Below, in pieces: positions 2,725 through 63,045 of a stretch of DNA of 64,000 nucleotides (its first letter is position 1; each line of letters starts with the position of its first letter). The position numbers and the translations under genes were made by a program. Origin of the DNA: Owenia fusiformis (Eukaryota > Annelida > Polychaeta > Sabellida > Oweniidae); NCBI GenBank assembly GCA_903813345.2, contig CAIIXF020000001.1, forward strand, positions 21,905,915-21,969,914, given 5' to 3'. Below the pieces are notes generated by a model that saw nothing but the letters and a program-made list of their open reading frames with translations, was not told the DNA's origin and did no database searches.

Positions 2725-5700
2725 ATGAGACTGATGGTTGTGTTTTGGTGTTTCAGTAGTGTGCTTTGGTTGGTGTTTATTACTGGAGTCTCAGGACATT
2801 CCATAGAGTCTGGAAAGAGGGGACAACATAAGAACCACCCAGAGAAACGTAAGTTTACAAATTTTATTAAGGTACAATGTAGTTACAAACAATTACAAAA
2901 GTTGAAAAAATGAGGAAAAGTCACTGTAACATTAGATCAAAAAATGTAATTTTGAACTAGGTCTCTTACTATAAAAGGTAAATTTATTTTGATGAAAATT
3001 ACACTTTCTCACTACACACTGGGCTACCAAAAGTTCTTATGCTGTGAAAAATGCAAGATATCTCAACACATACATGTATACCCTAGGTTGGGCCCTAGGT
3101 ATACCCAATACTGCAATAGGCTGTAACTTGTATTGAACGCCTCAAGGGCCTCATGGGTGAGTCAATAAGTAAAGTCAATGGCTATTTACACTTTATTAAG
3201 ATGTTCTTGTTCATCAAGTATTTGAGTCAACCTAACTATTTTATTTTAATTATTACGTTATTTAAAAGTCTGATTGCTAATGAATGCAGCTGGTCCACGC
3301 GACAACATATTTATAGCGGTACTCATCACCCACTCGAAATGTCACATACCCCTGATCAAACACTCCATGGTCCTCAACGATGTTTAGCTCTGTAACAACA
3401 CTAATTGCTATTGTATTTCAAAGTGTGTCTTTAATGGACAGTTTCACAGAAATTTCTAGTATTTAAACTGCTACTCGAGGACCTTTAATTATTTACATTA
3501 TAGGTGACAAAACTTGCTTAAAATATTTCAAACAGACTTTCTTGTTTATGGGATTTAGAATTCAAACTGGGTTGATTCAAACTTAGATGGGCCACCGTGG
3601 ATATGGATGTCCTAATGCAAACCATATGGTTAAACTATTTGTGTTCTAAGTCACATCTCTATAACTGGAATGAAAGCTTGCTTACATTAACGGATTATCT
3701 GATTAATAAGTTAATTCCATATTTGCAAATTGAAGAAATGTAACCATAGCAACTTTGGAAATGTTCCCATAATCCAAGCTGTAATTATCCCGTTACCGGC
3801 TTAGCGCTTTATATTTCATGAGAAGTTTAACTTTATTCAACTCACTTTCCATTTCATATTGTTCCATACTGTTAATGTTGCTCTATATATGCAACAATTT
3901 TCCACAAAAGGCCAATTTCTATTAACCAAACCTGTAGTCTTAAACCAATGATGAGCAATTATCACAGTTGTGTTTCTCTTTATAATAATAAACTATTGTA
4001 ACATGCAATCATAAGGTTGTAATAGTTGTGCTAATTCTCAGTATCAACGCTTTCATCATTAGTTCAGAAACGTGAAAAATAATAAATTGTCATGCAATGA
4101 TTTTACACAAGGAGTGTGGTTTGGGGAATCCTGTAGGCTTGTAAAATGGATATATATTTTTTAATTTACCGCCATCAAAATTTTTATTACACTGTACAAC
4201 TTCAAGTGGTGCAACTGAAACTATAGATATATTATGATTTTAATGCATTTCCAGTAATTTATCATATTGTATGTAACAAAATCATAAATATTTTGCCATT
4301 AATTTCAGGTGATCGTGTAAACGAAGAGATCACGAATGAAATCAGCACCAATCCAGGGAGAAAGCACCATAACCGTGCAAATGGAGGGACGTCAAAGAAA
4401 GTGAAAATAACAAAGAAATCCAAAAAGGATTGCTGCAACGGTAACGGCATCTGTTACCTTGGAAACTTTTGCCATTGTGATCAGTGAGTACACATTTTTC
4501 AATTATATCTCAGATGAAGATATATATTTCGTTTCTTCATCCTAGATTATACTGTATCAAGCTAAAACTAGGTACAGATCGTATCGGCGAAATTGATTTC
4601 TAAAATAGATATCGTTCACACTGGAGAAAATGAGTTCCAGATGAAACCCCGCTGATCAACATTTCGATTTAATTTTGAATCATCGTACTCAGTAGTAACT
4701 ACATTGCAAATTAAGTTTTATTTGTAAAATTAGTTGTCTTCTATTTTTCTCATTATATCTCTTATTTTTAAGACAGAAGAATCATTCCGAATTTTCGCTA
4801 TTCCGAATAATTATCTTGAATTCAAACAAAGTTATTCAGTTACTAATTGTAAAGTGTACAAATTGGTGAAATTAACTATTTTAAGATAATGATTGAATAT
4901 GATACATAGGGGTAGCAAAATTTTAGAAGTAATTTTGAAATATATATATTTCTCAAATATTCAAAGTTACTAGGAGTAGCCATATTTATTATCTTGAAAT
5001 GATACACACTGGTGAGAAACAACGCATACACATTTCGTAGATTATTCATCAGTCCACTCATTTATTTCCAGTCGCTACTATGGGCGTTATTGCGAGTACT
5101 ACCTAGAGCATGAGTTCTGCGGCCCTGAGATAGAACATGGTACCTGGCACCCAACAGGCTGCTTCATGTGCTTCTGTTTCAACGGGGAGATGGACTGCAT
5201 GAGACAGAAACGATTCGATACATGCAGTAAGTACAATTAGAAAACAGTTGATTGGTATTTACTACTTGTTGATTTTTTCTTAATCTATAAAAGTTTGAAT
5301 TTTCGTGACAAGGATGCAGTCATTTTGTCCGGGTAGACTTCAAATGGGATGGATGATACTAATAATAGACAATTGTGCGAGGGAGTTTTCTTTGGTTCAA
5401 TCTGTTTTACACACTGATAAAAATCTAGTTCTGATACCACCTTATAAATGTTTCAACTAATTATACTCAATTGTCCAATATATAATTTCATAATAAAAAA
5501 GAAAGGAAATGGGGGCTCACTCTGAACTCGTACTGCAAGGTTGAGTCCAGTTAACTTACTTGTCTTGTTTTAAGAGCAGTTAACTTATATGACTGTCTAA
5601 ATAACTCTTAAGACACCATGATGCATCATCCAATACCTTTGTAAATAGAATTTCAATTTATTTTTAAGCTATGGAAGAACCTTTCCCCGTGTTTCCATGG

Positions 5701-7836: not shown

Positions 7837-7930
7837 GAATTCAAGCCCAACATATCCTGAAAAGGTGGGGTCCCCAAGATTTAACAGTCAGTCCCCTAAC
7901 CTAGTATAAATAGTCCTAAATACACTCTAC

Positions 7931-10900
7931 TTATTTTAAATCAAGAATCATTGATGCAGGGTTTTCTAAATAGGATTTCCATAGATTTGAGTAACGACAC
8001 ATGGTAGCGCCATCTATGACTCTGTGATCAGCTGACCAGCTGACTTGCATTATGTGAGCCTTCGCAACATTCCCAGCATCAAATCTTGGCAGAGTCTGCA
8101 ATAAAATATGAAGTTGGAGTTTTGAATTGCTACTCAATTAAAATTCACCCTCAATCCATTTAGCCATTCATTCTATGTTAATTTAGAATTTCTTATGCCA
8201 TCTTGTCATTGCGAACAGCTATTGATCGTTTTCTATCATTTTGTAAATGGTACAATTACAATGTCATGATAAAACAAAAGTTCTAATACTTATTGTTTCA
8301 TGATGAATAGACTGAACAAAATTGTGAGCCATTTATAAACACTCCACTAGGATTTTGTTAAAAAACACTATCGATCTGGAATCTTCACTGTGAAATTATT
8401 CACTTTGTTATATGTAACATTAAACTTAGACATTTTCACCAATCCAACACTGGTTCATCATACAGTGATTATACTATTACTCACATGTATTCATGTACAG
8501 GTATTAAATATAACTCACCTGTATTTTGCCTATTGCACCTATGGCCACCTCAGGAGGTAGCAAGACTGGGGAGGCATATGTTCCTCCAATCTACAAGCAA
8601 ATTTTTACAAACATTATATTACCACTTCTTCTTCTCATACTTTAAGAAACATATAGTGACTATGCCAGCAATAACTTTCTGCTTTTTCACCACCAGATGC
8701 AATGATGGCACCAACTGAACAAATATCAAAAAAATATTAATTTTAAAAATTAATCCATCTTTGAAAAAGTGTACAAATCATACTCCATGGTTTTAATGGC
8801 ATCGCAATAACTGCCCGCCTTTGTCTTGTATTGTTCTTTCGCAATTGACAGATAAGAGGGGGTCTGGTGAACAAGAAATTTCCCAATGGCATTAGTCACA
8901 GATTTAACTTTTAACTTCAACTTTTAAGGTTTAACTTACTGATCCTATATTAGATATACTGAAGGTGCCTCCAGTTAAATCACTGGGGCCAAGTTTTCCC
9001 TTAGTTCCTAGGTCCACAAGTCTTGTTAATTCTGAAGCCACTTCAAATATACTCAGTGCCTGGACATTCTTAATGTTAGGGACCATCAAACCATCTGGAG
9101 TGTCCATTGCTAGACCTATGTTGTGGCTTGCCTAGAAAAAAATAATAAACACAATATACTTTATCACTTTCATTCAATATCATCTCAAAAGCTCACAGAT
9201 AGGTGCATGTATCTCCTCTAAACAAAATGACCTATCATTAGATACAATTATTTCCTCTGAGGATTTTGAAGTCTGCAAAGTGATTGAGGTCTTTGGCAAA
9301 GAACACATCTTCTTGATGACGGCATGGAATGTAAAAGTTTGATATTTGTTTAACATAAATGAACTTGGATGTTGTTTACTTGGAATGTATCTGTCACAAT
9401 ATAAGTTTGTACATGTAAATGGTTAGTTCAAATATTAGAGATGTTTCTCTCATTAGTGTAACTTGTTTTTGTTTATGGTTATAGTTGTACAAAGCATATA
9501 TTTTATGTTCCGCATATACATATAGATTATTAGATTTTATCAATCAATTCTAATATATCATTCTCATCGGAAACATACCTTATAAGTAATGTTCTCACAC
9601 TTGTCATCTACATGTGCATTAAGTGTTGGGTACTGGCCTAGTGCAAGTGAAGCTGCCTGCAAGAGTACATGTAACAGAACATTATGTAATTCACCATATA
9701 AGTCAGTTCAATAAGGTATATCTTGACTTAAGTGTTGGGTACTGGCATAGTGCAAGTGAAGCTGCCTGAAAGAGTACATGTAACAGAACATTATGTAATT
9801 CACCATATAAGTCAGTTTAAAAAGGTACATCTTGACTTAAGTGTTGGGTACTGGCCTAGTGCAAGTGAAGCTGCCTGCAAGAGTACATGTAATAGAACAT
9901 TATGTAATTCACCATATACACAGCCAATATAATTCGACGCCGTTTCGGCATCAAACAAATTCGGCACTGTTCCAGCACCGTTTCGACACCGTTCCGGCAC
10001 CGAAACCTTTCGACACCAAAATTTGCTACCGGACTAGTCAGTCCATTTGGTGCCGAAACGGCACCGAAATTTGGCACCGAAACGGCGTCGAAAATCAGAT
10101 TGCATTTTGGGGGTGTAAGTCAGTTTAATAAGGTACATCTTGACCTAAGTGTTGGGTACTGGCCTAGTGCAAGTGAAGCTGCCTGCAAGAGTACATGTAA
10201 TAGAACATTATGTAATTCACCATATAAGTCAGTTTAATAAGGTACATCCTGACCTAAGTGTTGGGTACTGGCCTAGTGCAAGTGAAGCTGCCTGCAAGAG
10301 TACATGTAATAGAACATTATGTAATTCACCATATAAGTCAGTTTAATAAGGTACATCTTGACCTAAGTGTTGGGTACTGGCCTAGTGCAAGTGAAGCTGC
10401 CTGCAAGAGTACATGTAATAGAACATTATGTAATTCACCATATAAGTCAGTTTAATAAGGTACATCTTGACCTAAGTGTTGGGTACTGGCCTAGTGCAAG
10501 TGAAGCTGCCTGCAAGAGTACATGTAACAGAACATTATGTAATTCACCATTAAAGTCAAGTAAATATTACTACAAGGTACATATTGACCCATCAAGGTAT
10601 TGAGAAAAATTGAAATTTCTTTTGCTCATTGTGTCAATAATTCTACACGATTCATTGAATTTTAATGAATGACCGCATAATAGCGAAGATATAAAATCAA
10701 CTACTTTGGAAAGACTCATTATAAAGTGGCTAATTAATTGGAAAGATGTGAATTTCAAAAGCCAAGTTTTTTTATTGTGTACCAAAACTGAGACAGACAA
10801 ACATTTGTTTGACTGAAGGATACATTGATAGAAGAGTATGAATTAACAGGGGCTTTTATATGATGCGTAATCAATCCTTAAATCCAGTCACATGTCAACA

Positions 10901-13794
10901 AGTATTATGTTTTATTTCAAATGAAGACACTCACCTTTAAAATAACAGGCATATATGAGAAATTGATTCCTCGCTCAGCTGCCATCTTTCTCAAACTGTC
11001 CCTAAGGTTAACAAGTGCTGTCATGTCAATTTCATCACAGTAGCCAAAGTGAGGAATGGCATTAGCAATAGTCATAGTTTTCACCATAGCTTTACGCACT
11101 CCCTTTAGAGGTTCAGTTTTGTCTTTACCAAGGACTACTGGTGCTGGCCTCTTCAGTGGGGGTGGTGGTTTAGCTGCAGAGGGGGTAGGGGCGGTGGATG
11201 GAACAGCAGGTTGAGGTGGAGCACTAGGTTGTACGGCTGGAGTTTCTTGAATTTAAAATGAGAATATTGATCTCGTGGTAAATTATCATTGATGCATCAA
11301 ATAAATCATTTACATTTACAAAGTTATTATTAATAAATCATATGAATTCAATCATACTGTATGGTATTTAAATCCGGTTAACTTTAATTCTTCTTTTAAA
11401 CATTACTATTTTGCATGTATTAACATTACTACATAACATTTACCTTTAGGTGTATCTTCTCCTTGCATAAATCTGAGAATATCCTCCTTTAAGACACGTC
11501 CATCTTTCCCAGTACCAGACACCTCACTTAGTCTTATCTACAATTAAATACGTATTGGTATTGAAATCAAACAATTGTATGCAGTACACATGTATTATTG
11601 TGAAACATTTATCAGTCACAAATTATGGGAGCACCTTAGATTTCATACAAAGCATTATCATGCAAAATGTCACAACCTTAAATTTGTTACATTTGTTACA
11701 GACGTCAAACTCCAACATCCGACAAAAAAGTTGGAGACTTCAACAATATGTGGTGGTGACATAATAAGGGTTGTTGGAGGATTTTAAATTAATATGCATC
11801 TTGCATGTACGCAAAACCATTTCAAATTGAAATCCATTGTGAATATGATAAACTGATCCCATATCCTCCCTGAATATCAGATACCAGTATATCTTACTTT
11901 ATTTTCCATGGCCAATCTCCTGACAGCTGGTGTAGCGAGCACCTTGTGTCCTTTCACCATTTGCATAGAGTGATCAGTACTGGATATGGTCATCTCACCC
12001 TCTTCTGGGGGGTCATAGGTAGGTGTGTCTGTACTGGATGCTGGAAAGAATTTTAGAAGTCAGTTAGAATTATTACAGAGTTAAGTATTTGCACTTCTGT
12101 ACCACCAGACACTTTATTAGTTTATAAATTCAAAATTTATCTCGATGTGATATTTCATTTGGCACATGTGTTCATTTTTCCACACCGTTGCCTGAAACTT
12201 TGTGTTGGTGTTTTGAGATTTTTGAAATTATTTTGCTTCATAAATCCTATGTGCTCTTACAATCTTCACTCACTTAAACTCATGGAGGAATTGTATTTCA
12301 ACCATCTGTTATAAATGTGCATGAATATATTTTACTCAAGTAAAGTGTGAACTCTCTAGAAATATTGATGTAAAAACATGTTTTCCTCATGTATTTAAAA
12401 TGCAACAGCAATGGAATTTCAAAAACCAAGTAACAACAAAAATCACAATATCCAAACAGCCCTTAATAGTAAATTATTGTAAATAATATATTATTGTAAT
12501 CCCTGATGTAATAATCCTTACATGGAGAGTCTTCATCTGTCTCTATGTCAACTAAAGGGTCCCCAACTAGAGCTAAATCATCTATTTCATAATAGAGCTT
12601 TTTAACCTTTCCATCATAGCGACTAGTGATGGTAACTGAAGCTTTGTCACTTTGGACCTCACATAAACTGTCAAACTGACTAACAGTGTCACCTTCTTTC
12701 ACAAACCTGAAATGCAAATGTAGCAATTTGACTTAGTTACAGTACAGACTTAAAATGGCGCAACATCAATTAAATAATGTCCAGTATATTTGACTTCAGA
12801 AAAGCTGATATTTTCAGAAAATAGGAAAATATGGCAATTGATTCAATTTGTAACAAAATACTTGAATAAGTTTATAGGGAACCAGTGTTTAGTTTCCAGT
12901 TTAATCTTTCAGGTAATTTGCATTTCCAAGTCAGTGTTAATGTTTTTTGTCAGATGGCAAAGGAACTTGTTTATTTAAATGATGGGCTTTCAACTAGATC
13001 TAATTGAAAGCCCATGAAAATACTCAGTTTTAAAAAGTGTTTTCAATACATCACTTAAATTGTGCATTGTGAAATTAATTTTATTAAAAATGTCCAAAAT
13101 TTGTTGACATAAAGGTATATCCACTTACCATTCTTTAACATGGACTTCTCGTATCCCCTCACCAATATCAGAAAGTTTAAAAGGAACAATTTTCCCCTGG
13201 CTCACTGAAAGAAAATATTCTACATAAATTTGATTGATAGGATAAAATCCAATAACAAATAAACACTGTACACAAACATTTAGTATTTATATGTAAATGT
13301 ATATAGCAAACTAAACGCAAATCTAAAATAATTGTGAAAAATGTAAAATCAATATCAATCCAGGTTTAAGAATGAATTAGAAATGATAGAATTTTTATGA
13401 CACATCATCTGGTAACATAATACTCCGCATAATACTTCTTAAATGGATAAATGATAATGATATATAAACACAAGTGCTTTAAGACCAAATAATACATTGA
13501 AAGATTAAATCTGCTATCATGGCTATGAGGACTTGAAATACAGAGATTATGCTTGCAATAAAGTCTACTGTTGGTGTATGTTACATATCACTATGAATTA
13601 AAAACAGTTTGGGTGATAAAGGATAAGAGCTACAGGTATTTCATCTTAAGAGAATAATCATTGCACATACCCAAAGATGCATGGAATGCCCTAGAGTGTA
13701 GATGATGGGTCCTTTGTTTCACTTTGAGAGGGCTGGGAACCTTTTGGACATTCTTCCTTTCATTGAATTTGCCAACTTCTGTGACTGCGGAGGA
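7931..13794 (-). CDS. DBT: Lipoamide acyltransferase (E2) of branched-chain alpha-ketoacid dehydrogenase
   Basis: DBT transfers branched-chain acyl groups from lipoyl-lysine to CoA in the mitochondrial matrix during Val/Leu/Ile breakdown. Ten exons fit with correct phases: 13671-13794, 13129-13204, 12522-12706, 11898-12040, 11444-11537, 10935-11245, 9579-9656, 8940-9131, 8519-8590 and 7931-8095. They encode 479 aa, and only the short first exon with the start Met is not found. In order one sees: a basic presequence-like stretch; a lipoyl domain (FKLSDIGEG, with the lipoylation site [11 protein letters not shown]); the subunit-binding domain ([28 protein letters not shown]); a Pro/Ala-rich linker; and the catalytic domain ([31 protein letters not shown]). 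It ends with [10 protein letters not shown], which carries the catalytic His and Asp, and [18 protein letters not shown]. The acceptor at 11245 has an in-frame alternative three codons downstream. The exon at 9579-9656 sits at the end of a 109-bp tandem repeat. Confidence 0.95.
9621..10582. repeat. 109-bp tandem repeat (seven copies) spanning a DBT intron-exon junction
   Basis: Copies begin at 9621, 9730, 9839, 10147, 10256, 10365 and 10474. Spacing is exactly 109 bp except for one 308-bp interval, explained by an inserted 197-bp element plus a 2-bp duplication. On the minus strand each unit holds the end of the intron, a CTTGCAG-type acceptor and the first 12 codons ([12 protein letters not shown]) of the DBT exon at 9579-9656. 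Only the copy nearest the exon continues into the rest of the exon and a donor. The other copies therefore carry complete but dead-end acceptors. Reading on from one of them soon hits a stop. Confidence 0.95.
9919..10115. mobile_element. 197-bp palindromic MITE inside repeat copy 3, TA duplication
   Basis: Comparison with the neighbouring 109-bp units shows an extra 199 bp: a 197-bp element plus a duplicated TA (9917-9918 and 10116-10117). The ends are CACAGCC... and ...GGGGGTG. Inside, TTCGACGCCGTTTCGG at the left mirrors CCGAAACGGCGTCGAA at the right, and GGCACCGAAA-type words recur. The GC content is clearly higher than in the surroundings. There is no coding capacity. Confidence 0.8.
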
Positions 13795-13903
13795 CTGGAA
13801 TGTATAATTGGGTACTATAAAACATATTTATCCATGCATATATTCATACATGCAAGTTTCAAGAATTCAGAATTTATAGTTACATGTACATCAAATATCC
13901 TTA

Positions 13904-15082: not shown

Positions 15083-17130
15083 TTATCTGTAAATATACTG
15101 GTAGTCTGGCGTTGGTTCAGTATCATCCAATGGGTGGTAAACAGGTTGAGGAGATTGACGTTTTGTGATCGAAGAAACTCTTTTTGCAAGGTAGTTTTCA
15201 TATGCTCCCTGATTTCCTGATACTGTAGCTGCTTGTACTGGATGGTTATTATCATATGGCAGTTGAGGTCCCGAAACCATGGCAACTAGTTTTCGTTGGT
15301 TGTCATCAAATGTTAGTTGCGGAGGTCTTTGCATTTTAGGTATAGGTCTTCGAACTGGCAGTTTATGTCCTGTAGGGTTTGTTGGGGAACTCCAGACATC
15401 ATCATCTAAATATAATTCATTTGCAGGAAGTTTTGCTGTTCTATTTCTTGAAGTAATGACATTGGAATTTCCACGGAATTTTACATCAGGTATTATTTGC
15501 CTCCCAGATGTTGATTGTATAGCCTCTTCATTCATATGCTCAGTTGGCACATCTCCTTCATCAAGGTGCTCAGACTCTGGTACACATACTCCATAGAGTT
15601 TATATCCTTGTAGACTGATTATTAAAACATTCTTAGCTGCGAAAAATATGTTTGTGTATGTGACAATTCTGTAGTGAATGATAGTGACAAGTCGGACTAT
15701 GAGAAAAGGAGCATCATGCATAAATGTGGCGATTAATATACTAGCAACAGTGGCATTCCAGCATTTATGCGTTGTTGTCTGACTCTGAGTACTTGTGATA
15801 CTTGGTAATGCAAATGTGAACTGAAATAGACTAACACTATAGACAGCCAAAATAGCATAAACTACTCCATCTTGTCCTTGCTTCCAATCACTCGTGAAGA
15901 TATCCAACAGATCAATGATGTCCGCTGCTACGCCTACATATCCTATAAGTTGTTCTGAGAGTTGTTGGCGGGTCATTGCTTCATGGTGTGGTAATAACCA
16001 CTTGCCCAGTAGGATCAACAGCAACATGGATTGTACAATGGCAATTTCAAATGTTTCATCTGATACGGGTATATCTATATCCTGAAATAAAAGAAGAAAT
16101 ATTTTAAAATTTGTGAACATATATCATAGGGTGGCTTGATTCAATAATTTTGACATAACATCTTCATAAATCATATTTGCCAGAGATTTTAAACATCGCA
16201 ATAAGGGGTCAGAGATTTGGGTTTGGTTTCAGTTCTTGACTCACTCAGTTCTGTTTTGGTTCAGTTATTCTCCGTTCTCATTGCACTATTATATTCTGAT
16301 ATGATAAAGAATATAGAACAAAATTAGCCTGTATGATCACTGATCACTGTATTTTGCAATTTTTATAATGTCAAGACCATCATCAGCATTTTTTCAATCT
16401 AGGTTATTTTAGTAAACATGCATTTACGAACAGTAACTTTCCTAAAATTGATATTGTTACAAAAAAAACGATTTTAACAAATTTTCTGAAACAAATGAAC
16501 CATAGAGGCCAATAATGGTCTGACCCCTAATTACCATGTAAATTAACAATTACCTCATAAAAATAAGAAGATTTTGATGAATTGTTGGATGAGTCATAAT
16601 TTCCAGCACTGAAAAGAGTCGAAAGCTCTTCCTGGTTCATGCTGAGGCTATGCATCTTAATCATCCATACACAAGGCACTGTCATTATCAGGTAGAACAG
16701 TACTGTAGGGCATATGCTGAAAATATAAAAATGCATGATTAATATTTTCCATTTGAGGTCTGTAAGAGATTGAGACAAATGTTGGAATGTGTTTGGTAAA
16801 AAGCTGACAATTGATAATATATGTACTAAAAGGGCAAAACTGGATCACACAATATTTTCAACATAAGGTCAACAAAGGTCAATTGGTATATCATTTAATA
16901 GATATACAAGTATTTACAAAAAAGACTTACCTTTTGCTGATCTCAACTCCTCGTCTTTTGAAAATGACATATGCTCCTTCAACGAATATGCCTAGGGTTC
17001 CGATACAGAGAATCCATCCATAGACACCATAAAATACTGCTATTTTCCAAACTGCTACTAAGCCATGTATCATGAATAAGAACCTACTAAGGCAGGCAAA
17101 TGATGTACGAAAACACTCCGACAAAGCCAT
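15083..17130 (-). CDS. TMEM26: Transmembrane protein 26 (TMEM26) homologue
   Basis: TMEM26 is a multi-pass membrane protein of unknown molecular function; in mouse it marks beige adipocytes. There are three exons: 16931-17130 (ATG at 17130), 16554-16716 and 15083-16081. They encode 453 aa, with phases AG|C and a codon-boundary junction. Conserved landmarks line up with the human protein: LFMIHGLVAVWK near the N-terminus, FKRRG before the first junction, CPTVLFYLIMTVPCVWMIKM, LLLILLGKWLLP, MTRQQLSEQLIGYVGVAADI, VVYAILAVYS, FMHDAPFLIVRL and FFAAKN. Hydrophobic helices fill roughly residues 1-285. Residues from about 288 to 453 form a Pro/Asn/Gln-rich cytoplasmic-type tail, longer than in human TMEM26 (368 aa in total), with repeated VSGPQLPYDNN/VSGNQGAYEN-like phrases. 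NSS and NAT sequons lie in predicted loops. Confidence 0.9.
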
Positions 17131-25831: not shown

Positions 25832-27211
25832 AACTACTAGTATGTGTCCTTAATATGTAAAATAATCATATACCATTTCAAATGTTGACCTTGACCTTAA
25901 GTTAAGAAAACATTAACTCAACAAGAAGCAAATCACAGTAAAGAAATTTTTTTTTGATAAATAGTGGTCGTCTTTCTCCTTGAACTGACCTTTTACCAGT
26001 TTACTGGTATTTCAATTTTCAAAAAACATGTTTTCTTGTAAAAAATAATGGCCATTTTGAAACTCAGCTGTCTTCTTGAACCTACCTATTTCATGGCTTA
26101 AATCTGATCCTACACATGATACAGACTTCAGGGACCCACATTGATGGAGGGATCTACTATAGAAGTCATTGATCTTAGGAATCTGGATATGTGAATGGAG
26201 CTCTGGAAATACCCAAAAAATGTGTAAATTAGTGTAGATTATAACTAGTCTTTGCATCAGGATGCAATAAAGCACATGTTATGGGGAAAATGTAAGTTTC
26301 AAAATGGACGTTCTTTTTGTTTTGTATTTTGTTTACCAGTAATGAGGGTTGGCAAAACCTGTTCTGTATATACAGCATGTCCCCCACCCCCCTAGGCAGT
26401 ATGGGCCCCCCATAAGCAGACATATACCAATGGTTCCATTGCATGTGTCATATATCATTTAAAGCTTTGCACAAGCTTTAAATGTTGTCATAACATGTTG
26501 TCATGGCTTTTTGTACCAGCTAACTACTAGTATGTGTCCTTAATATGTAAAATAATCATATACCATTTCAAATGTTGACCTTGACCTTAAGTTAAGAAAA
26601 CATTAACTCAACAAGAAGCAAATCACAGTAAAGAATTTTTTTTTTGATAAATAGTGGTCGTCTTTCTCCTTGAACTGACCTTTTACCAGTTTACTGGTAT
26701 TTCAATTTTCAAAAAACATGTTTTCCTGTAAAAAATAATGGCCATTTTGAAACTCAGCTGTCTTCTTGAACCTACCTATTTCATGGCTTAAATCTGATCC
26801 TACACATGATACAGACTTCAGGGACCCACATTGATGGAGGGATCTACTATAGAAGTCATTGATCTTAGGAATCTGGATATGTGAATGGAGCTCTGGAAAT
26901 ACCCAAAAAATGTGTAAATTAGTGTAGATTATAACTAGTCTTTGCATCAGGATGCAATAAAGCACATGTTATGGGGAAAATGTAAGTTTCAAAATGGACG
27001 TTCTTTTTGTTTTGTATTTTGTTTACCAGTAATGAGGGTTGGCAAAACCTGTTCTGTATATACAGCGTGTCCCCCACCCCCCTAGGCAGTATGGGCCCCC
27101 CATAAGCAGACATATACCAATGGTTCCATTGCATGTGTCATATATCATTTAAAGCTTTGCACAAGCTTTAAATGTTGTCATAACATGTTGTCATGGCTTT
27201 TTGTACCAGCT
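25832..27211. repeat. 690-bp near-identical tandem duplication
   Basis: Bases 25832-26521 and 26522-27211 match over the full 690 bp with only about three differences seen (t/c at 26035/26725, a/g at 26374/27064, and one a/t at the poly-T start). Each unit contains one copy of an ATP5F1A pseudogene exon. It is either a very recent duplication or two haplotypes joined in the assembly. Confidence 0.9.
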
Positions 27212-37940: not shown

Positions 37941-40900
37941 ATGTTTAGCACGAAGGAATATCTCGATAAGAAAACCGGACCATATGGCATCGGACGATTG
38001 AGCTATCTGCAAGCCCTAGTGAACGAATTTCAAGAAACAAAGAGTGAAAGTAGATATGCATTTTCTTGTTTGTACAAAATTAAATAAATCATGGAATTAT
38101 TTCCTAGTACATCAAAAGCACTACTGAGTGAGTGAGGTATCTTTAGTATGTTTTAAAAATATTTATCTAGGATTAAAAAATCTTTAGTCTCTAGCAACGT
38201 TTATTACACATTTTACCGAAATGAGATGAAATGAAATACAATACAAAACGATACCTGATGCAGACTTGCCAACTTCCCGTTTTTTTACGGGAATCTCCCG
38301 TAAATTTTTGGTTTTTCCGTAAAAAATACCAAACTCCCGTACCGTTTTCTCCCGTAAAAACTCCCGTAAACTCCCGTACCGTATTTCTACTAAAAACCCT
38401 GTAATTTTTTTAAAAAATATGGCCGTAAAATCTCCCATATTTTTGCTGAAATCTCCCGTAAAATCTCCCGTATTCTGGTTTAACTCCCGTAAAATCTCCC
38501 GTATTCTTGGTATAACTCCTGTAAAATCTCCCGTTTTCTGGTATAGCTCCCGTAAAATCTCCCATATTCTTGGTATAACTCCCGTAAAATCTCCGTTTTT
38601 TTGCTGTCGAAATCTACCGTATTTAAAAGGAATTTGACAAAGGACCTTATACACCCGCCATTGGGATCTCCCCATGGGAAAAAAATAATTCATCTGATTT
38701 TTCAAAATAAGTATTCTGCTTCAATTATTACATTTATATGCACACTAGTATCTTGTTGACCTATATTCAGCACTGTATTGATGTATAGGCCACTTATTAG
38801 GGTCATAATTCAATCATGAAGTGTAGAGGCATAGATTCCAAACCAGGAAGTATTTTTGTGTCCGTCAAAATCCATTTACATCCTAGGCATCCCTGCATCT
38901 TATCCAAATATGTTACTACATAATGAAATATAATAGTATAATCTTTGGTTTTACAAACTTGTATGGTATGTGATAAGTGTAAAAGTTGTTTTTGGAGCAT
39001 TTTTCTATAGCCATTTTGTAGGGAAAAAAATGATGAAAAAATGTACAATCTTTTAATTTTAAGTATGACCTGAATCGATTGCAAACCTCATATTTGCACA
39101 TTTGATGAGATAAACCATTTGTGTCGTATTGTGAAATTATTAAGTTTGCAATCGATTCAGGTCATAGTGTATTTTTGGTATTTCTGTGATAATCAATTGA
39201 AACCAATGGCCTCTATTGGGATCTGCTGATATCCTCATGTTAAGTCAATGGTGCACAGCCCCATGTAAGTCAATACAACCTTACTGAACGAAATGATCCC
39301 TATCTCAGCTTATGTGTGTCCGAGCACTTTAATATTTTCCAAAGTATTATATGACATTTTATTCTTCATGTTACACCTACGAATGATTCATTTTGACCAT
39401 AGGGATATATGCCAATAATTGCACCTTGTCCTTTGCAGGCACGCTTCTTTCTTTTACTCCAAGAAGGATTGGCTCCCATGGTTCACTATCGATACTTTCA
39501 TAAATAACTTAAAAGTACTTCATTCCCATTGGATTCAAATTGCTTTTCTGCGATCAGTTCGGTATAAGTTTGCACACCAAATGTCCACAAACGGGGGCCA
39601 GTTCATATTCTGTCATACTTCTGTCGGGAGAATACATTTTGTTTTTATATGGCGCTAAACAAAATATTCCCGCAATATAAGGCGCATCTTGGGTAGGGAC
39701 TGCTGTGAAATAATGAACGTAAGTGAAATCTATCTTAGATTATAAGTTCTAATTTATTTATTAACTGCGCATGCGTCATAATAATTTCAACCAATTAAAT
39801 CGCTGGATTTAATGCTCATGCGCGAAAAACCGAACCTAAAAATGGAACCTCATGCAGATTGCCCTTAGCATAATAGTGAACGCCACATATACATTTTACT
39901 TAGCTTTGATCAATTCGTTTCTACCGTTTTTTCAGAAATCTACAGTAAAAACTCACGTTTTTTTCAAAATCTACCGTAAAAACACCCGTTTTTTCAGAAA
40001 CCTACCGTAAGATCTCCCGTTTTTCCGAAATCTACAGTAAAAACTCCCGTTCTTTCAAAATCTACCGTAAAAACTCCTGTTTTTTTCAAAATCTAAAGTA
40101 AAAACTCCCGTTTTTTTCAAAATCGAAAGTAAAAACTCCTGTTTTTCAGAAATCTACCGTAAAAACTCCAGTTTTCTCGAAATCTACCGTAAAAACACCA
40201 GTTTTTCAGAAATCTACAGTAAAAACTCCCGTTTTTTCAGAAATCTACCGTAAAAACTCCCGTTTTTTCAGAAATCTACCGTAAAAACTTCTGTTTTTTT
40301 TAAAAATCTACCGCAAAAACTCCCGTTTTTCAAAACCTACCGTAAAAACTCCCGTTTTTCAGAACCTACCGCAAAAACTCCCGTTTTTTCTGAAATCTTC
40401 CGTAAAAAAGTCACGTTTTTTTAATTTACCGCGAAAAATACCCTTTTTAAAAAATCTCCCGTAAAAACTCCAGTTTTTTCAAAATCTCCCCTAGAAACTC
40501 CTGTTTTTTTCAAAATTTACCGCAAAAGCTCCAATTTTTTTAAATCTCCCGTATTTCGAAAAATCTCCCGTAAAAACTCCCGCTTTTTCTCAAAAAACTC
40601 CCGCAAAAACTACCGGATTTTGAAAAAAACTCCCGTAAAAGTACAGCAATTTTTTTTAAATCTCCCGAAAAATTTTCATTTTAGGTTGGCAAGTCTGCCT
40701 GATGTAACCTCATTCGATCACGCTCTTAATGTACTTCAAAATAAACATGAAGTTGATGTTGGACATTTTGAAACACCTTGGCACTTCCATGGCACTTCTT
40801 AAAAAATGTAAGCCTTATTTTCTAAAAAGAGGATCTTGTTTTTCTCAATTTAAACATATAGAAAGTCTCCTCTACATTATATTAACAATTTCGTCCGTCC

Positions 40901-46336: not shown

Positions 46337-49300
46337 TCAAGCATCAAATAGTGTTTTCTTACCTAAAATACCATTTGTGTTTGCTGTTAACTCAATAGGC
46401 CATTTCAGGAAAAAATCCAAATGGTTATATTTCTTGGTAACTGCGACTTCAATTCGTTCATTGATTTGAACAACCATTGTTGTAAAAGTTGTTGTTATTT
46501 TAGTAGTTTCACTTCCTGTCCCAAATACTTCATCTTGCGTTTGCCACTGTAATTTCTTGTTGTTTATAGTAACATCGTCAAGGTTGACTTGTATTATAAC
46601 ATCATTTGTTGTGATATGAAGATGTGATATAAGTTTGCTCTCATTATCACCATCTGTTGTCTTCAATCTTGCATTAACTATCAAACCTGTAAATGAATAC
46701 AATACAGAAACATAGCAGAAATACATGACCAGTGCAATGTACTATCTTCCTTCTAAACACTAAACCTGCAAAGTCCTATTGACAAAGTCCTATTGAAAGC
46801 TAGCAGTTCTTTACAATTTATAGTTCAGTTTTTGCAGATGATATTATGATTGACTCCTTGATTCTGGACAATTGCTTAAAGGTGTGTCTGTAGATATGGT
46901 ACATTGCTTCACATGCTTTGTATAATTAATGACTTGAAAGAGATCTTCATCTTCAGTTTGGAGGAAGGATTAAGCAATTCATAGTTTGGGTGACGTGATG
47001 TGTCCCTACTTTTTCAGAAGGTTGAATGCAGTGGAATTCCAGCTAGCCTTGACTTTACTCGACTAGATATATCCATAAACAACTTTTTATGTCCCCACCA
47101 CATAGTGTTGGGCCATATTGTCGGCCTAGGCGCGTCCGTCTGTCTGTCCGTCTGTCTGTCCGTCTGTCTGTCCGTCTGTCCGTACGTCCGGCAGTTTTCT
47201 CCAAAACCGCTACAGATATCACCTTCAAATTTTCAGGGATAACTTATGAGTGCATACAGATGTGGATGAAAAAAAATTAACTCGATACCTACTTCCTGTC
47301 GGCCATTTTGAAGTCGAATGCTAAAATCCTTGTCTGCAAACTTTAAGAAAAACTGCTTCACAGTTGCTTTTAAAACTTTAACATCTTGTTCAGCTCACTT
47401 CATTCTAGATCTGATTAGGTTTTGGACCTGCTAGCTCAGTCATGTCAGCCATTTTGAATGTCTTAAGAAAAGTTAGAGCGCGATAATACTTTGTATCATA
47501 TTGAATGGTGTTTTTGAGTTTTCATACTTTAACTATTTAGTAGCTTTATAAATAATTTCAGATGTACTTTGCTGTAAAAGCCTACTTTATTGTTAACAGT
47601 AGTTATATGTGATAATTTTGTAAAAAGAAATCAGCAAAAACTCATAAGGACTTTTTTATTGTCGGCCATTTTGGATTTTTCGGTCCTAAAATCTTGTCTG
47701 TGAAGTCTTGTCTGCGCGTTTTCAGGTGAACCGTTTGGTGGATCAATTTCAAATTTTCAGGGATGATTCTTAGTATAAAAATCTAGATCTCATCAGTTTT
47801 TTGGCATTCTGGGTAAATGTCAAGGCAGCCATTTTGGATTTTCCGTCCTAAAATCTTGTCTGTAAAGTCTTGTCTACTCGTTTTCAGGTGAACTGTTTCG
47901 TAGATCAATTTCAAATTTTCAGGAATGATTCTTAGTATGAAAATCTAGAACTGATTAGTTTTTTTGCATTCTGGGTAAATGTCAAGGCAGCCATTTTGGA
48001 TTTTCCGTCTTAAAATCTTGCCTGTAAAGTCTTGTCTACGCGTTTTTAGGAGAACGGTTTGATAGATCAATTTCATATTTTCAGGGATGATTCTTAGTAT
48101 GAAAATCTACAAACAGATTAGTTTTTTGACATTCTTGGTAAATGTCAAGGCAGCCATTTTGGATTTTTCATCCTGAAATCTTGTCTGTAAAGTCTTGTTT
48201 ACATGTTTTCTGGTTTACTGTGTGACGGATCAATTTCAAATTTTCAGGGGTGGTTCTTAGTATGAAAATCTAGAACTGACTAAATTTTTGGCATTCTGGG
48301 TAAATTTTAAGGTGGCCACTTTGGATTTTCCGTCCTCAAATTGTGTTGGTAAAGTCTAAGTCTACTCATTTTCAGGATAACCATTTCACGGGATCACCAC
48401 TTGGTGGGGACATTTTGTACACATTTGTGTTCTTGTAATTCAGTTATTATTATTTCATATTAGGAAATCTTTTCAATTAAATGCAAACAGCATGCGCTGC
48501 TTGCATTTTTATGTCACCACCATATAGCCAATGTTTCTCACCAACAATCTTTTAGATTTGGCGTGACACTAAATTGTAACCATGTGGTGACATTTTGTCA
48601 TGTTTTAATGCCTTATGATTTTGATGATTCATTATTTTATTGAAAATATTTGAGAGTGTAAATATTGTTTTGCTTGATCTATGATTAATAGGCCACAAGA
48701 CTCACAAATTAGTTCAATTTGAGATGGTTTCATAACATGCATGCCTCAATGATACATAGGCATTTTAATAGCTGTGTATTACAGAATGAATAATGATTAG
48801 CAACATGAAGAAGGACTATTATCTAAATATGCTCTAAACCGGATGCCTCATTATCAACCTATCACATCTTCAAAATATATTTGAAAGTCAATTCGATACA
48901 GATGTTTCTAATATACTGTACTGTTCTTTTGTACTAAGCTCCTTGAATTTGAATTATGGAGAATTTACAACTGTGTCGCTTCACTTTACCATTTAATTGA
49001 AATCATTCATTTATTTTGTCTTGTGTAAGAGTCTGAACTGCAATGCAAGTATTGCTTTTTATTGCTGTTATTATGTGCTGTAGTTGTAATACAAATCCGT
49101 CCACTCATGCTTCAACCATAATCAAATACAGATCACTATGCAGCATTGAAAACATTCATATGATTATGTAGATATATATTTTTAAAAATGATGATGTCAC
49201 ACATGGGATACATACAAATCTCTTTATCATTTTATTTGGGCTTAGGTATAAGCGAGATTTAAAAGTCATCAAATGTACCTTAAAATGCTTCCAGCCTGTT

Positions 49301-54071: not shown

Positions 54072-54582
54072 AAAAGTAATGGTACATCCCAGCCCTTTCA
54101 GTAGGTTCACTTAACCAGGATATTTATTACCTCATCATTATCAATACCAAAAAGTAATATTACATCCCAGCCCTTTCAGTAGGTTCACTTAGCCAGGATA
54201 TTTATTACCTCATCATTATCAATACCAAAAAGTAATGGTACATCCCAGCCCTTTCAGTAGGTTCACTTAACCAGGATATTTATTACCTCATCATTATCAA
54301 TACCAAAAAGTAATGGTACATCCCAGCCCTTTCAGTAGGTTCACTTAGCCAGGATATTTATTACCTCATCATTATCAATACCAAAAAGTAATGGTACATC
54401 CCAGCCCTTTCAGTAGGTTCACCTAACCAGGATATTTACTACCTCATCATTATCAATACCAAAAAGTAATGGTACATCCCAGCCCTTTCAGTAGGTTCAC
54501 TTAACCAGGATATTTATTACCTCATCATTATCAATACAAAAAAGCAATGATACATCCCAGCCCTTTCAGTAAGTTCTCTTAA
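54072..54582. repeat. 78-bp tandem array, seven units
   Basis: The word CCCTTTCAGTAGGTTCACTT recurs at 54093, 54171, 54249, 54327, 54405, 54483 and (as CCCTTTCAGTAAGTTCTCTT) 54561, a constant 78-bp period. Units differ by one to three bases. The remainder of the last unit (CCAGGATATTTATTACCTCA..) resumes at 55345 after an inserted element. Confidence 0.95.
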
Positions 54583-55340
54583 GGTGCTATGGAACTTAAC
54601 AGGAAATGACAAAACAGGAAGTGACACTTTTTTTTGCATTTTTAGATATTTTTTGAATAAAAATAACAGAGTTCTGGTTTGACCTCCAGTCAATTGAACT
54701 ATTTCCACATATCATTTACATGACCAGGATCACAATGTGCATGGTCAGAATGACCCTAAACATGATGAAATAACCTTTTTAGCCCTTTGAAAGTGTGACT
54801 GAAAAAAAGCTAAAAGTAGGAGCGTAGGGATAGTCACTGAGCAGAATCTTTTGAATTTTTCAGAAAATGTGCCCAATATAATGCTCTAACTAGTACAATC
54901 TTTGAAATTTTAGAAAATTGTCTTAAACAAAAATGGCAGTCATAAAAAGGAAAATAGATCGCTTTTCAAATCAGTTTTTTCATTTTTTTTTCTTTTTCTA
55001 TGAATGATATCAAATTTTCAAAGATTGTATCATTTAGAGCAATATATTGGGCACATTTTCTGAAAAATTCAAAAGATTTTGTTTAGTGACCTTCCCTACG
55101 CTCCTACTTTTAGCTTTTTTTCAGTCACACTTTCAAAGGGCTAAAAAGGTTATTTCATCATGTTTAGGGTCATTCTGACCATGCACATTGTGATCCTGGT
55201 CATGTAAATGATATGTGGAAATAGTTAAATTGACTGGAGGTCAAACCAGAACTCTGTTATCTTTATTCAAAAAATATCTAAAAATGCAAAAAAAATTGTC
55301 ACTTCCTGTTTTGTCATTTCCTGTTAAGTTCCATAGCACC
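54583..55340. mobile_element. 758-bp foldback element at TTAA, inserted into the 78-bp array
   Basis: The arms run nearly the whole length: GGTGCTATGGAACTTAACAG at the left, the inverse at the right. TTAA flanks both ends (54579-54582, 55341-55344), where an intact array unit has a single TTAA (TTCACTTAACCAGG). The centre is AT-rich (about 54940-55000). TTAA targeting suggests a piggyBac-type non-autonomous element. It has no coding capacity. Confidence 0.9.
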
Positions 55341-55379
55341 TTAACCAGGATATTTATTACCTCATCATTATCAATACTT

Positions 55380-56169
55380 AACCTTAAAGTTTTGATTTTC
55401 TAATGTAGATGCATCATACATTTAGTCTAATTTCTTTTTTCATCAGGATATCTATTGTTTGGACCGACGTTTTTTATCAGTAGTACAGTCATCTTGATCT
55501 CCTTCAAGGTTTGAGTACTAAGTTCAAGCGCTACTGTAAACCTAGAAATTTAAAGCAAAATATTCAGATTGAGTAATTGATCGATCCGGGTTACTAATTC
55601 AAGTTATATTTGAACATCTAATGAATCGTATATATTATAACACGTAAGACATACATACAATAATATCAGAGCAGTAAATGATTTTAATAATTCACAAAAC
55701 TAATTAATTCTTACTACACTACATAAAAATCATACATTATTGGCGTTTCGGCATGTTCAGAATTTTTATTCAACTTCCAGTTCTTGAGCATGAGCTCCCC
55801 ACAGTTGTTGCCGAAACATCAATAATGTAAGTTTTTTGGGTAGTGCAATTAATTAGTTTTGTGATTTATAGCCCCATTAGATGACCTACCCAATGAACCT
55901 CTTCAGTGAGATTTTAACAATAACTGAGACAATCAGAATGGCCAGAAACGTAAACATTTTTTTCATTGTGACATGTTTTTCAAAATATAGCACCATGAAC
56001 ACAATCCATTATTAAAATTCAGGAAGTACCAGAAGATCCCTCCTAAATTCACCATTTTTGACAAAAAATAGAAATTCAAAATATTCCATGCTTACAGTAC
56101 ACAAATATTATATATCATGCCAAGAAATTCTGTAGCATATTTAGTCCTTGTTAGTTTTGAAAAGTAATT
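55380..56169. other. Region upstream of the UGT-like gene
   Basis: AT-rich, no gene recognised. An inverted pair (ACTACATAAAAATCATACATTATTGGCGTTTCGGCA at 55718-55753 versus TTGCCGAAACATCAATAATGTAAG near 55808) marks a small MITE-like hairpin. The promoter of the UGT-like gene should lie in the last few hundred bases, but no motif is clear. Confidence 0.4.
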
Positions 56170-57762
56170 ATGGATTCAAAGGCATTGTTTCTATTTTTGT
56201 GTTCTTCTGTTATGAGTGTATCTTGCATTCATGGAGCAAAACTACTATTTGCACCCTTAGACTTAGGATATAATAGCAGGGTAACAAATATGTTAAAACT
56301 GTGCAATTTGATGTACAAACAAGGGCATGATATCAGTGTATTATGGTCTGAATTACTACAGAAACACGAGCTATATGAAATGAATGAGAAAAACAACTTG
56401 AAAATGATGGAACAGTATGATATCATTACATACAAAACTCCAGTCCTGAATGGAACAGGAAATCAAAATTGGTTGGATGATATGATTGGACTGCCTATGT
56501 CACAGCAAAATGAACCTACCAGACCTGTAATTCTCTCCAACTTAGAACTTACCTTAAAAGATCAAACTGCTTGGAAGAGATTAACTGAAGTGAAGTATGA
56601 TTTGATAATAACTGATGAATACGTATTCGTTACAAGAATCCTAGGAGCGCAGTTTGATATTCCTGTTATAGCCTATATAAATTGGGGACCATTTTCTATA
56701 CAAGGATCACTGCTGGCTCCAATTAACCCCTCCTATATACCAATAGACTTAAGTCAACCCTATAGCGATAGCATGACTTTCATGGAGAGACTATGGAACA
56801 CATGGGAGCATATCAAGTTGTACAAGTCTTCTATTACAACTTTTGGAAAAGCAAAGGAGATCTGTTTGAAGTACAGTCGGATCATCAAACCAAGTGCTTG
56901 TGAGAATTTGCCTGATTTCTACAAAACAGTTTCGTTGATTTTGATGAACAGGCACAATGTGTTACATTATCCAGCTCCATTTATGCCTCATGTGATCTCG
57001 ATTGCTGACTTTTTTCTAGATCCACCAAAGCAGTTGGATGCTTATTACAATGACATCGTAGAAAATAGTGGCTCTCATGGTGTTATACTGGTTAGCTTTG
57101 GTTCCCTATTTCGACGTCTTTCTGACACGAGAGCTGCAATGTTTGCCCGTGCATTCGCTGCAATGCCTCAAACTGTCATATGGAGTTATGATGGAGATAA
57201 ACCAGAAGGTCTAGGTGCCAATACTATCATTGACAAATGGATCCCACAAAAGGACCTCATGAGCCACCCGAACATAAAACTGGTGGTGCATCAATGTGGA
57301 ATGACAAGCACTTTTCAAACTATCCACTATGCCCAACCTACCGTTAACATACCATTTTTCCTGGATCAAGTCTACAACTGTGAAAAACTTGCGAATCGTG
57401 TGAAGTCAGGGGAGCTGTTACGAGTGGAGGGGTTAACAAGTGAAATTCTACTGAAGGCCATGAAGAATGTGATCAGCAATGCAACATATAAAGCTAATGC
57501 TGAGAAGGCCTCTAAGATTCTGTCAGATAATGACATGGATCCAAGCGACAAGGCAATATACTGGATTGAATATGTCCTTCGTCATAAAGGGGCCCATCAT
57601 CTGCGCTCTCAGGGGATGAATAATCTTAGCTTCTGTCAGTACTACCTGTTGGATATTATTGGACTTGTTTTACTCATTGTAATTTTCATTCTCTATGTTG
57701 TTGTTTCTCTTGTAAAGTTCTTAGGAAGGAAAATTTGGCCTTATAAGCAAAAGAGAGACTGA
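56170..57762 (+). CDS. UDP-glycosyltransferase (UGT)-like protein, intronless, catalytic His missing
   Basis: UGTs are ER membrane enzymes that transfer sugar from UDP-sugars to small lipophilic molecules. This uninterrupted 530-aa frame has the full layout: signal peptide (1-22), variable acceptor-binding half, WIPQKDLMSHP (357-367), the UGT signature ending in IPFFLDQ (394-400), an amphipathic lead-in, a C-terminal membrane helix (about 485-512) and a Lys/Arg-rich tail. The signature aligns without gaps to human UGT2B7, but the UDP-contacting His (T-H-G-G) is Gln375 within VHQCG. The N-terminal catalytic His (G-S-H) is Asn35 within LGYNSR. The Asp-Gln pair that binds the sugar is kept (399-400). 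It is therefore probably a pseudoenzyme or has altered chemistry. The lack of introns suggests a retrocopy or an intron-poor UGT lineage. It lies between two minus-strand secreted-protein genes. Confidence 0.85.
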   Translation: MDSKALFLFLCSSVMSVSCIHGAKLLFAPLDLGYNSRVTNMLKLCNLMYKQGHDISVLWSELLQKHELYEMNEKNNLKMMEQYDIITYKTPVLNGTGNQNWLDDMIGLPMSQQNEPTRPVILSNLELTLKDQTAWKRLTEVKYDLIITDEYVFVTRILGAQFDIPVIAYINWGPFSIQGSLLAPINPSYIPIDLSQPYSDSMTFMERLWNTWEHIKLYKSSITTFGKAKEICLKYSRIIKPSACENLPDFYKTVSLILMNRHNVLHYPAPFMPHVISIADFFLDPPKQLDAYYNDIVENSGSHGVILVSFGSLFRRLSDTRAAMFARAFAAMPQTVIWSYDGDKPEGLGANTIIDKWIPQKDLMSHPNIKLVVHQCGMTSTFQTIHYAQPTVNIPFFLDQVYNCEKLANRVKSGELLRVEGLTSEILLKAMKNVISNATYKANAEKASKILSDNDMDPSDKAIYWIEYVLRHKGAHHLRSQGMNNLSFCQYYLLDIIGLVLLIVIFILYVVVSLVKFLGRKIWPYKQKRD

Positions 57763-58739: not shown

Positions 58740-59490
58740 TGTCATTGCATCATTGATGATACATGTATTGCACAATTGCCATATGATAATGTATGTCACC
58801 ATTGTCATTGGAAGATACATGTATTTCACCATTGTCATTGGATGATACATGTACCATTACTACACAATTGTCATTAGATGATGCTTGTATTGCACAATTG
58901 CCATATGATAATGTATGTCACCATTGTCATTGGAAGATACATGTATTTCACCATTGTCATTGGATGATACATGTACCAGTACTACACAATTGTCATTAGA
59001 TGATGCTTGTATTGCACAATTGCCATATGATAATGTATGTCACCATTGTCATTGGAAGATACATGTATTTCACCATTGTCATTGGATGATACATGTACCA
59101 GTACTACACAATTGTCATTAGATGATGCTTGTATTGCACAATTGCCATTGGATGATACATGTATTTCACCATTGTCATTGGAAGATACATATGCCAGTAT
59201 TGCACAATTGTCATTGGATGATACTTGTATTGCACAATTGCCATTGGACGATGCATGTATTTCACCATTGTCATTGAAAGATACATGTGCCAGTATTGCA
59301 CAATTGTCTTTGGACGATACATGCATTTCACCATTGTCATTGGATGATACATATATTTCACCATTGTCATTGGAAGATACATGTGCCAGTATTGCACACT
59401 TGTCATCGGATGATACATGTATTTCACCATTGTCATTGGAAGATACATGTGTCAGTATTGCACCATTGTCATTGGAAGATACATGTCCAT
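58740..59490. repeat. ~30-bp minisatellite with a 122-bp higher-order unit
   Basis: The basic unit is ATTGTCATTGGATGATACATGTATTTCACC with variants (GAAGATAC, TAGATGATGC, CCATATGATAATG). At the left it is organised into 122-bp blocks (30+36+30+26) ending at 58800, 58922 and 59044. Further right, units are mostly 30 or 36 bp. Multiples of three keep long frames open on both strands (194 codons + at 59037-59621; 175 codons - at 58982-59509). These are repeat artefacts lacking splice or start context. The array lies just downstream of the sushi/EGF gene. Confidence 0.9.
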
Positions 59491-59676
59491 TTGTTATCTC
59501 TTCAGTCAAATTGTATCTCAGTCAAGTAGCTGTTCCCAGGCAGCGACAATTTGGCATATTATTGGCAAAGCATATCCTAGATACAAGTCCCTCTCAGCCA
59601 GTGTCTTACATATTTGTGTAGTCTTGCTATTTGTGTAGTGCTCTGTGTGTAACCATGTACTGCGGTTCTCGTTTCC

Positions 59677-63045
<3,369 letters not shown>

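Follow-up and report, generated by a model that had tools for sequence, protein, structure and literature searches.

A tandem array repeating the splice acceptor of a DBT exon resembles the mirage minisatellites of lancelets

A minus-strand gene, whose predicted product is DBT, the E2 subunit of the branched-chain keto-acid dehydrogenase, carries seven tandem copies of a 109-bp unit (9620..10558, minus strand) in which the end of an intron and the start of the following exon are repeated together. As far as this can be judged from sequence, the array belongs to an already described kind of structure, the mirage, since it shows every mirage feature that a sequence can reveal. We consider it quite probable that the array is a minisatellite of this type, in which the last copy, with its exon starting at 9656, is the one most likely spliced and the other copies act as decoys contributing a minor background. 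The array would most likely be harmless and probably makes no difference to DBT itself.

The gene occupies positions 7931..13794 of the window, that is, the whole stretch of 64,000 bases that was analyzed (GC content of about 0.345). Ten exons were found, all on the minus strand, at 13671-13794, 13129-13204, 12522-12706, 11898-12040, 11444-11537, 10935-11245, 9579-9656, 8940-9131, 8519-8590 and 7931-8095. Spliced together, they form a joined open frame of 479 codons with no internal stop, and a pseudogene can therefore be rejected; the exon with the first ATG was not located. Pfam recognizes lipoyl, E3-binding and 2-oxoacid_dh (acyltransferase) domains in the product, in that order, and its top PDB match is the BCKDH E2 (2ihw, E = 1.2e-109), followed by the PDH E2 (5.9e-74). 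The domain order and the closest match thus identify the gene, at the level of its predicted protein, as DBT. The exon bordering the array (9579-9656) is 78 nt long, in phase 0, and ends at the donor AAG/gtatgt; skipping it would keep the DBT frame. Once the six extra units and an insert within the array are subtracted, the array-bearing intron measures 425 nt, the other eight DBT introns ranging from 198 to 481 nt. A structured RNA was also considered and rejected, as Rfam gives no family at the gathering score in 7900-13900. Regarding the neighboring genes, Pfam detects a CFC domain (Cripto-like) at 5016-5237, TMEM26 at 15086-16123, a UDP-glucuronosyltransferase in one long ORF at 56161-57759, and EGF and sushi domains at 60318-62573.

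The original prediction had placed a sevenfold 109-bp unit astride this intron-exon border, at 9579-10582, with a complete 3' splice site and the first 12 codons of the exon in each copy. Our analysis confirms this description. TRF reports the 109-bp unit at 9619-9918 (2.8 copies, 95% matches) and at 10116-10558 (4.1 copies, 98% matches), a repetition far beyond chance, and seven copies can be aligned in register. In transcript sense, each unit contains 72 nt from the end of the intron followed by 37 nt from the beginning of the exon, the latter amounting to 12 codons and one further nucleotide. Copy 1 (9620..9728) is the true border, with its acceptor before 9656. The six extra copies sit in the intron, upstream of this border and on the same minus strand, each with a decoy acceptor: copy 2 (9729..9837, acceptor before 9765), copy 3 (9838..10145, before 9874), copy 4 (10146..10254, before 10182), copy 5 (10255..10363, before 10291), copy 6 (10364..10472, before 10400) and the outermost copy 7 (10473..10581, before 10509). 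The array is thus real, but it is not continuous as had been assumed: an insert of 197 nt at 9919..10115 had been missed, which splits copy 3 into two pieces (9838-9918 and 10116-10145), and the gene lies on the minus strand. No further full copy of the unit is present elsewhere in the 64-kb window.

The insert has a strong inverted-repeat fold and a TA duplication at its ends, and from its sequence it looks like a MITE, although no second copy was found in the 64-kb window. Because of it, the yUnAy motifs of copy 3 now lie about 200 nt away, whereas in the other six copies they are found at -41 to -47; as a test this carries little weight, since no such motif occurs within 80 nt of one of the nine other real DBT acceptors (8590). 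Searches of the unit and insert patterns against IMG/VR returned 0 matches each, which is uninformative for an animal.

In the block from -40 to +37, only 3 of 77 columns vary when all seven copies are compared. Among copies 4-6 there are 0-1 differences in 109 nt, copies 1 and 2 show four to six differences from them, and copy 7 departs from the others upstream of -41 (from about 10550), with an alignment gap of 8 nt. The acceptor reads tactcttgcag/GCAGCT, except in copy 2 (tctttcag), which has its own changes at -4 and +19, the second of which would read Gly to Cys. Over the 23-nt acceptor site, copy 7 is identical to the true one and copies 2, 4, 5 and 6 differ from it by 1 nt, the site of copy 3 being the same as in copies 4-6. 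Using a weight matrix built from the nine other acceptors of DBT and applied to the gene span, six of the seven array acceptors outrank each of the 303 other AGs, the exception being copy 2, which two of them surpass; both the acceptor and donor models draw on nine sites from a single gene. Since the acceptors are so alike in sequence, the context must pick the site. The copies had been predicted to be nearly equal, which holds for their sequence but not for their context, as only the last copy adjoins the rest of the exon and a strong donor.

This donor, at 9579, scores 8.71 and, with the model built without it, ranks above each of the 326 other GTs. The unit itself contains a weaker candidate, ATG/gtgaat, which, at 5.94, ranks higher than four of the nine real donors, whose scores when excluded from the model are 5.23, 4.19, 5.72 and 4.71. 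One example lies at 10437..10439 on the minus strand (last exon-side base 10439); the same donor recurs at 10330, 10221, 9913, 9804 and 9695, in each case downstream of a decoy acceptor, and also at 10548. In addition, four of the six unit junctions present AG/GT (donor positions 10472, 10363, 10254 and 10145), and the copy 5 junction, TAG/gtcagg, scores 6.19 as a donor.

The consequences of decoy use agree with two further claims of the original prediction, namely that an intact DBT needs the last acceptor and that mis-splicing would extend the exon into a frame that soon stops. The full reading frame runs only through 9656, and when any of the six decoy acceptors is read through to the true donor, a TGA is reached 60 nt (20 codons) in. 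Splicing from a decoy acceptor to an in-unit donor could define six pseudo-exons, five of 71 nt and one of 270 nt, all with a stop 60 nt in. In all six cases only 38 nt separate the in-unit donor from the next acceptor, less than an ordinary intron requires, and the yUnAy motifs (-43/-47) are located upstream of this donor; this spacing, together with the upstream position of the motifs, should hamper the chaining of neighboring units. We infer that splicing most likely proceeds at the last copy, because it alone would be paired across the 78-nt exon with the strong donor, and decoy use would then amount to a minor, unproductive background. In the available part of a study of human splicing, introns over 250 nt are treated as an exon-defined class, in which the sites closest across the exon are favored and the upstream preference shown by competing acceptors is significantly reduced (PMC9225289). 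The introns on either side of the 78-nt exon (1278 and 447 nt) would fall in this class, which supports the last copy only mildly, the data being human. Our preferred reading is weakened by the human upstream preference among acceptors, which would favor copy 7 (PMC9225289, available part), and by the scores of the in-unit donor and of the copy 5 junction, with which pseudo-exons may form.

These pseudo-exons are central to a different reading, in which the decoys are used substantially and the resulting exon extensions or 71-nt poison exons send DBT mRNA to NMD, copy number or splicing factors setting the output of this splicing rheostat. The equal strength of the array acceptors, an in-unit donor on a par with four of the nine real ones, and the six possible pseudo-exons with their early stops are all consistent with it. 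Nevertheless, we regard it as decidedly unlikely, given that the two published analogs, Adh3 and globin, are spliced regularly according to the available part of PMC3087553, that the decoys show no sign of constraint (copy 2 is changed and copy 3 is cut off from its yUnAy motifs), and that neighboring units are not easily chained across 38 nt. The regulated or NMD-mediated loss of DBT suggested as possible in the original prediction finds no support here. It also seems very doubtful that the decoys and in-unit donors would provide up to six poison exons in such a way that the amount of productive DBT mRNA depends on the number of units, which unequal exchange can alter even within a single individual. 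If instead the copy 7 acceptor were taken first and the remainder removed by a second, recursive step, the joining of AAG to GCAGCT would recreate only a GC-type donor, which is a poor match to the donor consensus, and there is no strong donor within the unit. This upstream-first use appears highly improbable, even considering that the distance from the donor to copy 7 (425 nt) is that of other DBT introns and that competing human acceptors prefer upstream sites (PMC9225289, available part).

The number of units must also be interpreted cautiously, as tandem arrays are often misassembled. In the available parts of the sources, one lancelet mirage draft is said to have been aberrantly assembled (PMC3087553) and the repeat numbers of the lancelet PGBD5 differ between assemblies (PMC3902484); the outer end of copy 7, moreover, looks like another haplotype. 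The array could then be collapsed, expanded or haplotype-mixed, and the true number of units would not be seven but perhaps one or two. We consider this unlikely, since the copies differ at fixed places and one of them bears a unique insert, so that at least several are distinct, even if the unit number is not fixed thereby.

Our preferred reading, a mirage-type minisatellite, rests on the comparison with published cases, each cited here from the available part of its source. Ebner et al. 2010 (PMC3087553) described under this name a minisatellite over an intron-exon border in the lancelet globin BflGb6. Like the DBT array, it is made of tandem units of the intron 3' end and the 5' part of the next exon, its inner units are homogenized and its border units are not, and many units keep their splice signals. 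The DBT repeat covers its border with 72 + 37 nt in seven copies, and its 109-bp unit falls within the published minisatellite range of 10-160 bp. Copies 4-6 are near identical, copies 1-2 less so, and the outer end of copy 7 is diverged, which is the pattern described for lancelet mirages, although seven units make this a light test. In BflGb6 there are 6 or 3 units, depending on the haplotype. In contrast to the DBT array, which is described here from its sequence, BflGb6 is a different gene with a unit of 150-160 bp, and its splicing was tested by RT-PCR. An inserted element such as the 197-nt one found here is not mentioned in the available part of the BflGb6 account. In the lancelet PGBD5, tandem repeats of 60 bp and 108 bp, the latter close to our 109 bp, were called mirage-like by the authors, but they are imperfect, the gene model is uncertain and splicing was not shown (PMC3902484). 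Repeats over exon-intron borders also form the mirages of the lancelet Adh3 (Canestro et al. 2002) and troponin C (Yuasa et al. 1998), which are said to give no aberrant mRNA (both via PMC3087553 and PMC3902484); the Adh3 mirage has units of 10-72 bp instead of 109 bp, and its length is unstable, also in somatic cells (via PMC3087553/PMC3902484). Regular splicing despite the mirages was reported for both Adh3 and the globin (PMC3087553). The human DDX3Y minisatellite, by comparison, is an upstream promoter array and does not lie on a splice border (PMC3039753). No mirage outside lancelets was found in the literature searched, a weak result given its partial coverage, with few subscription papers.

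The anatomy of the array, the relations among its copies and the insert are observed, and from them we infer the exchange events and their order. A segment made of the intron end and the initial 37 nt of the DBT exon after it would have been tandemly duplicated, then expanded and homogenized by unequal exchange, and a small element would later have inserted at a TA. At the unit junctions, the exon sequence ...CACTTA passes to the intron sequence GGTCAA... or AGTCAA..., and the outer flank of copy 7 still shows the intron side. As the rest of the exon and the strong donor lie outside the unit, unequal exchange should always leave exactly one acceptor on a complete exon, so that, judging from this anatomy, the copy number could drift while the coding sequence stays unharmed. 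A conversion with copy 2 as its source could, for its part, introduce the Gly to Cys change. The models of intron gain by tandem genomic duplication (available part of the review PMC3443670) likewise start from a duplication that multiplies splice signals, and the AG/GT at four DBT unit junctions is the type of signal invoked there; in those models, however, an exonic AGGT segment becomes a new intron, whereas the DBT copies sit in an old one.

Arrays with a period of 50 or more occupy about 6% of the window. When seven such arrays were placed randomly, at least one of the 19 DBT splice edges was covered in 46% of 20,000 trials, and the coincidence of an array with a splice edge alone therefore needs no function. 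Among the other repeats of the window, the region 54072-55344 holds a 78-bp array (about 6.6 copies, 96%) and, adjoining it, a large inverted repeat whose arms of 333 nt (54579-54911 and 55012-55344, 96%) enclose a 100-nt loop. A direct repeat at 25832-26821 (690-bp spacing, 99% over the 300 nt compared) is accompanied by ORFs that repeat along with it (26015-26447 and 26705-27137). Long frames are open through a 96/122 bp minisatellite at 58750-59491 on both strands (58985-59521 minus, 59034-59618 plus), and more arrays are found at 39924-40653 and 47665-48386 (31/61-bp CCGTTTTTTC type and 162-bp type). The palindrome TACATGTA occurs 25 times in the window, against 2.1 expected from dinucleotides; such an excess is a trait of mollusks and, taken with the GC content of about 0.345, may hint at a molluscan host.

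The main value of the DBT array would lie in testing how the splicing machinery chooses between equivalent sites. If real, it offers a natural construct that combines one strong donor with seven acceptors equal in sequence, and RNA from it could tell if the acceptor is selected by pairing over the exon or by distance over the intron. Should the host be something other than a lancelet, mirage repeats would be more widely spread than the literature found here shows, and the host would be the new part of the finding. Such a wider spread, if true, would bear on the proposal of mirages as a source of new introns.
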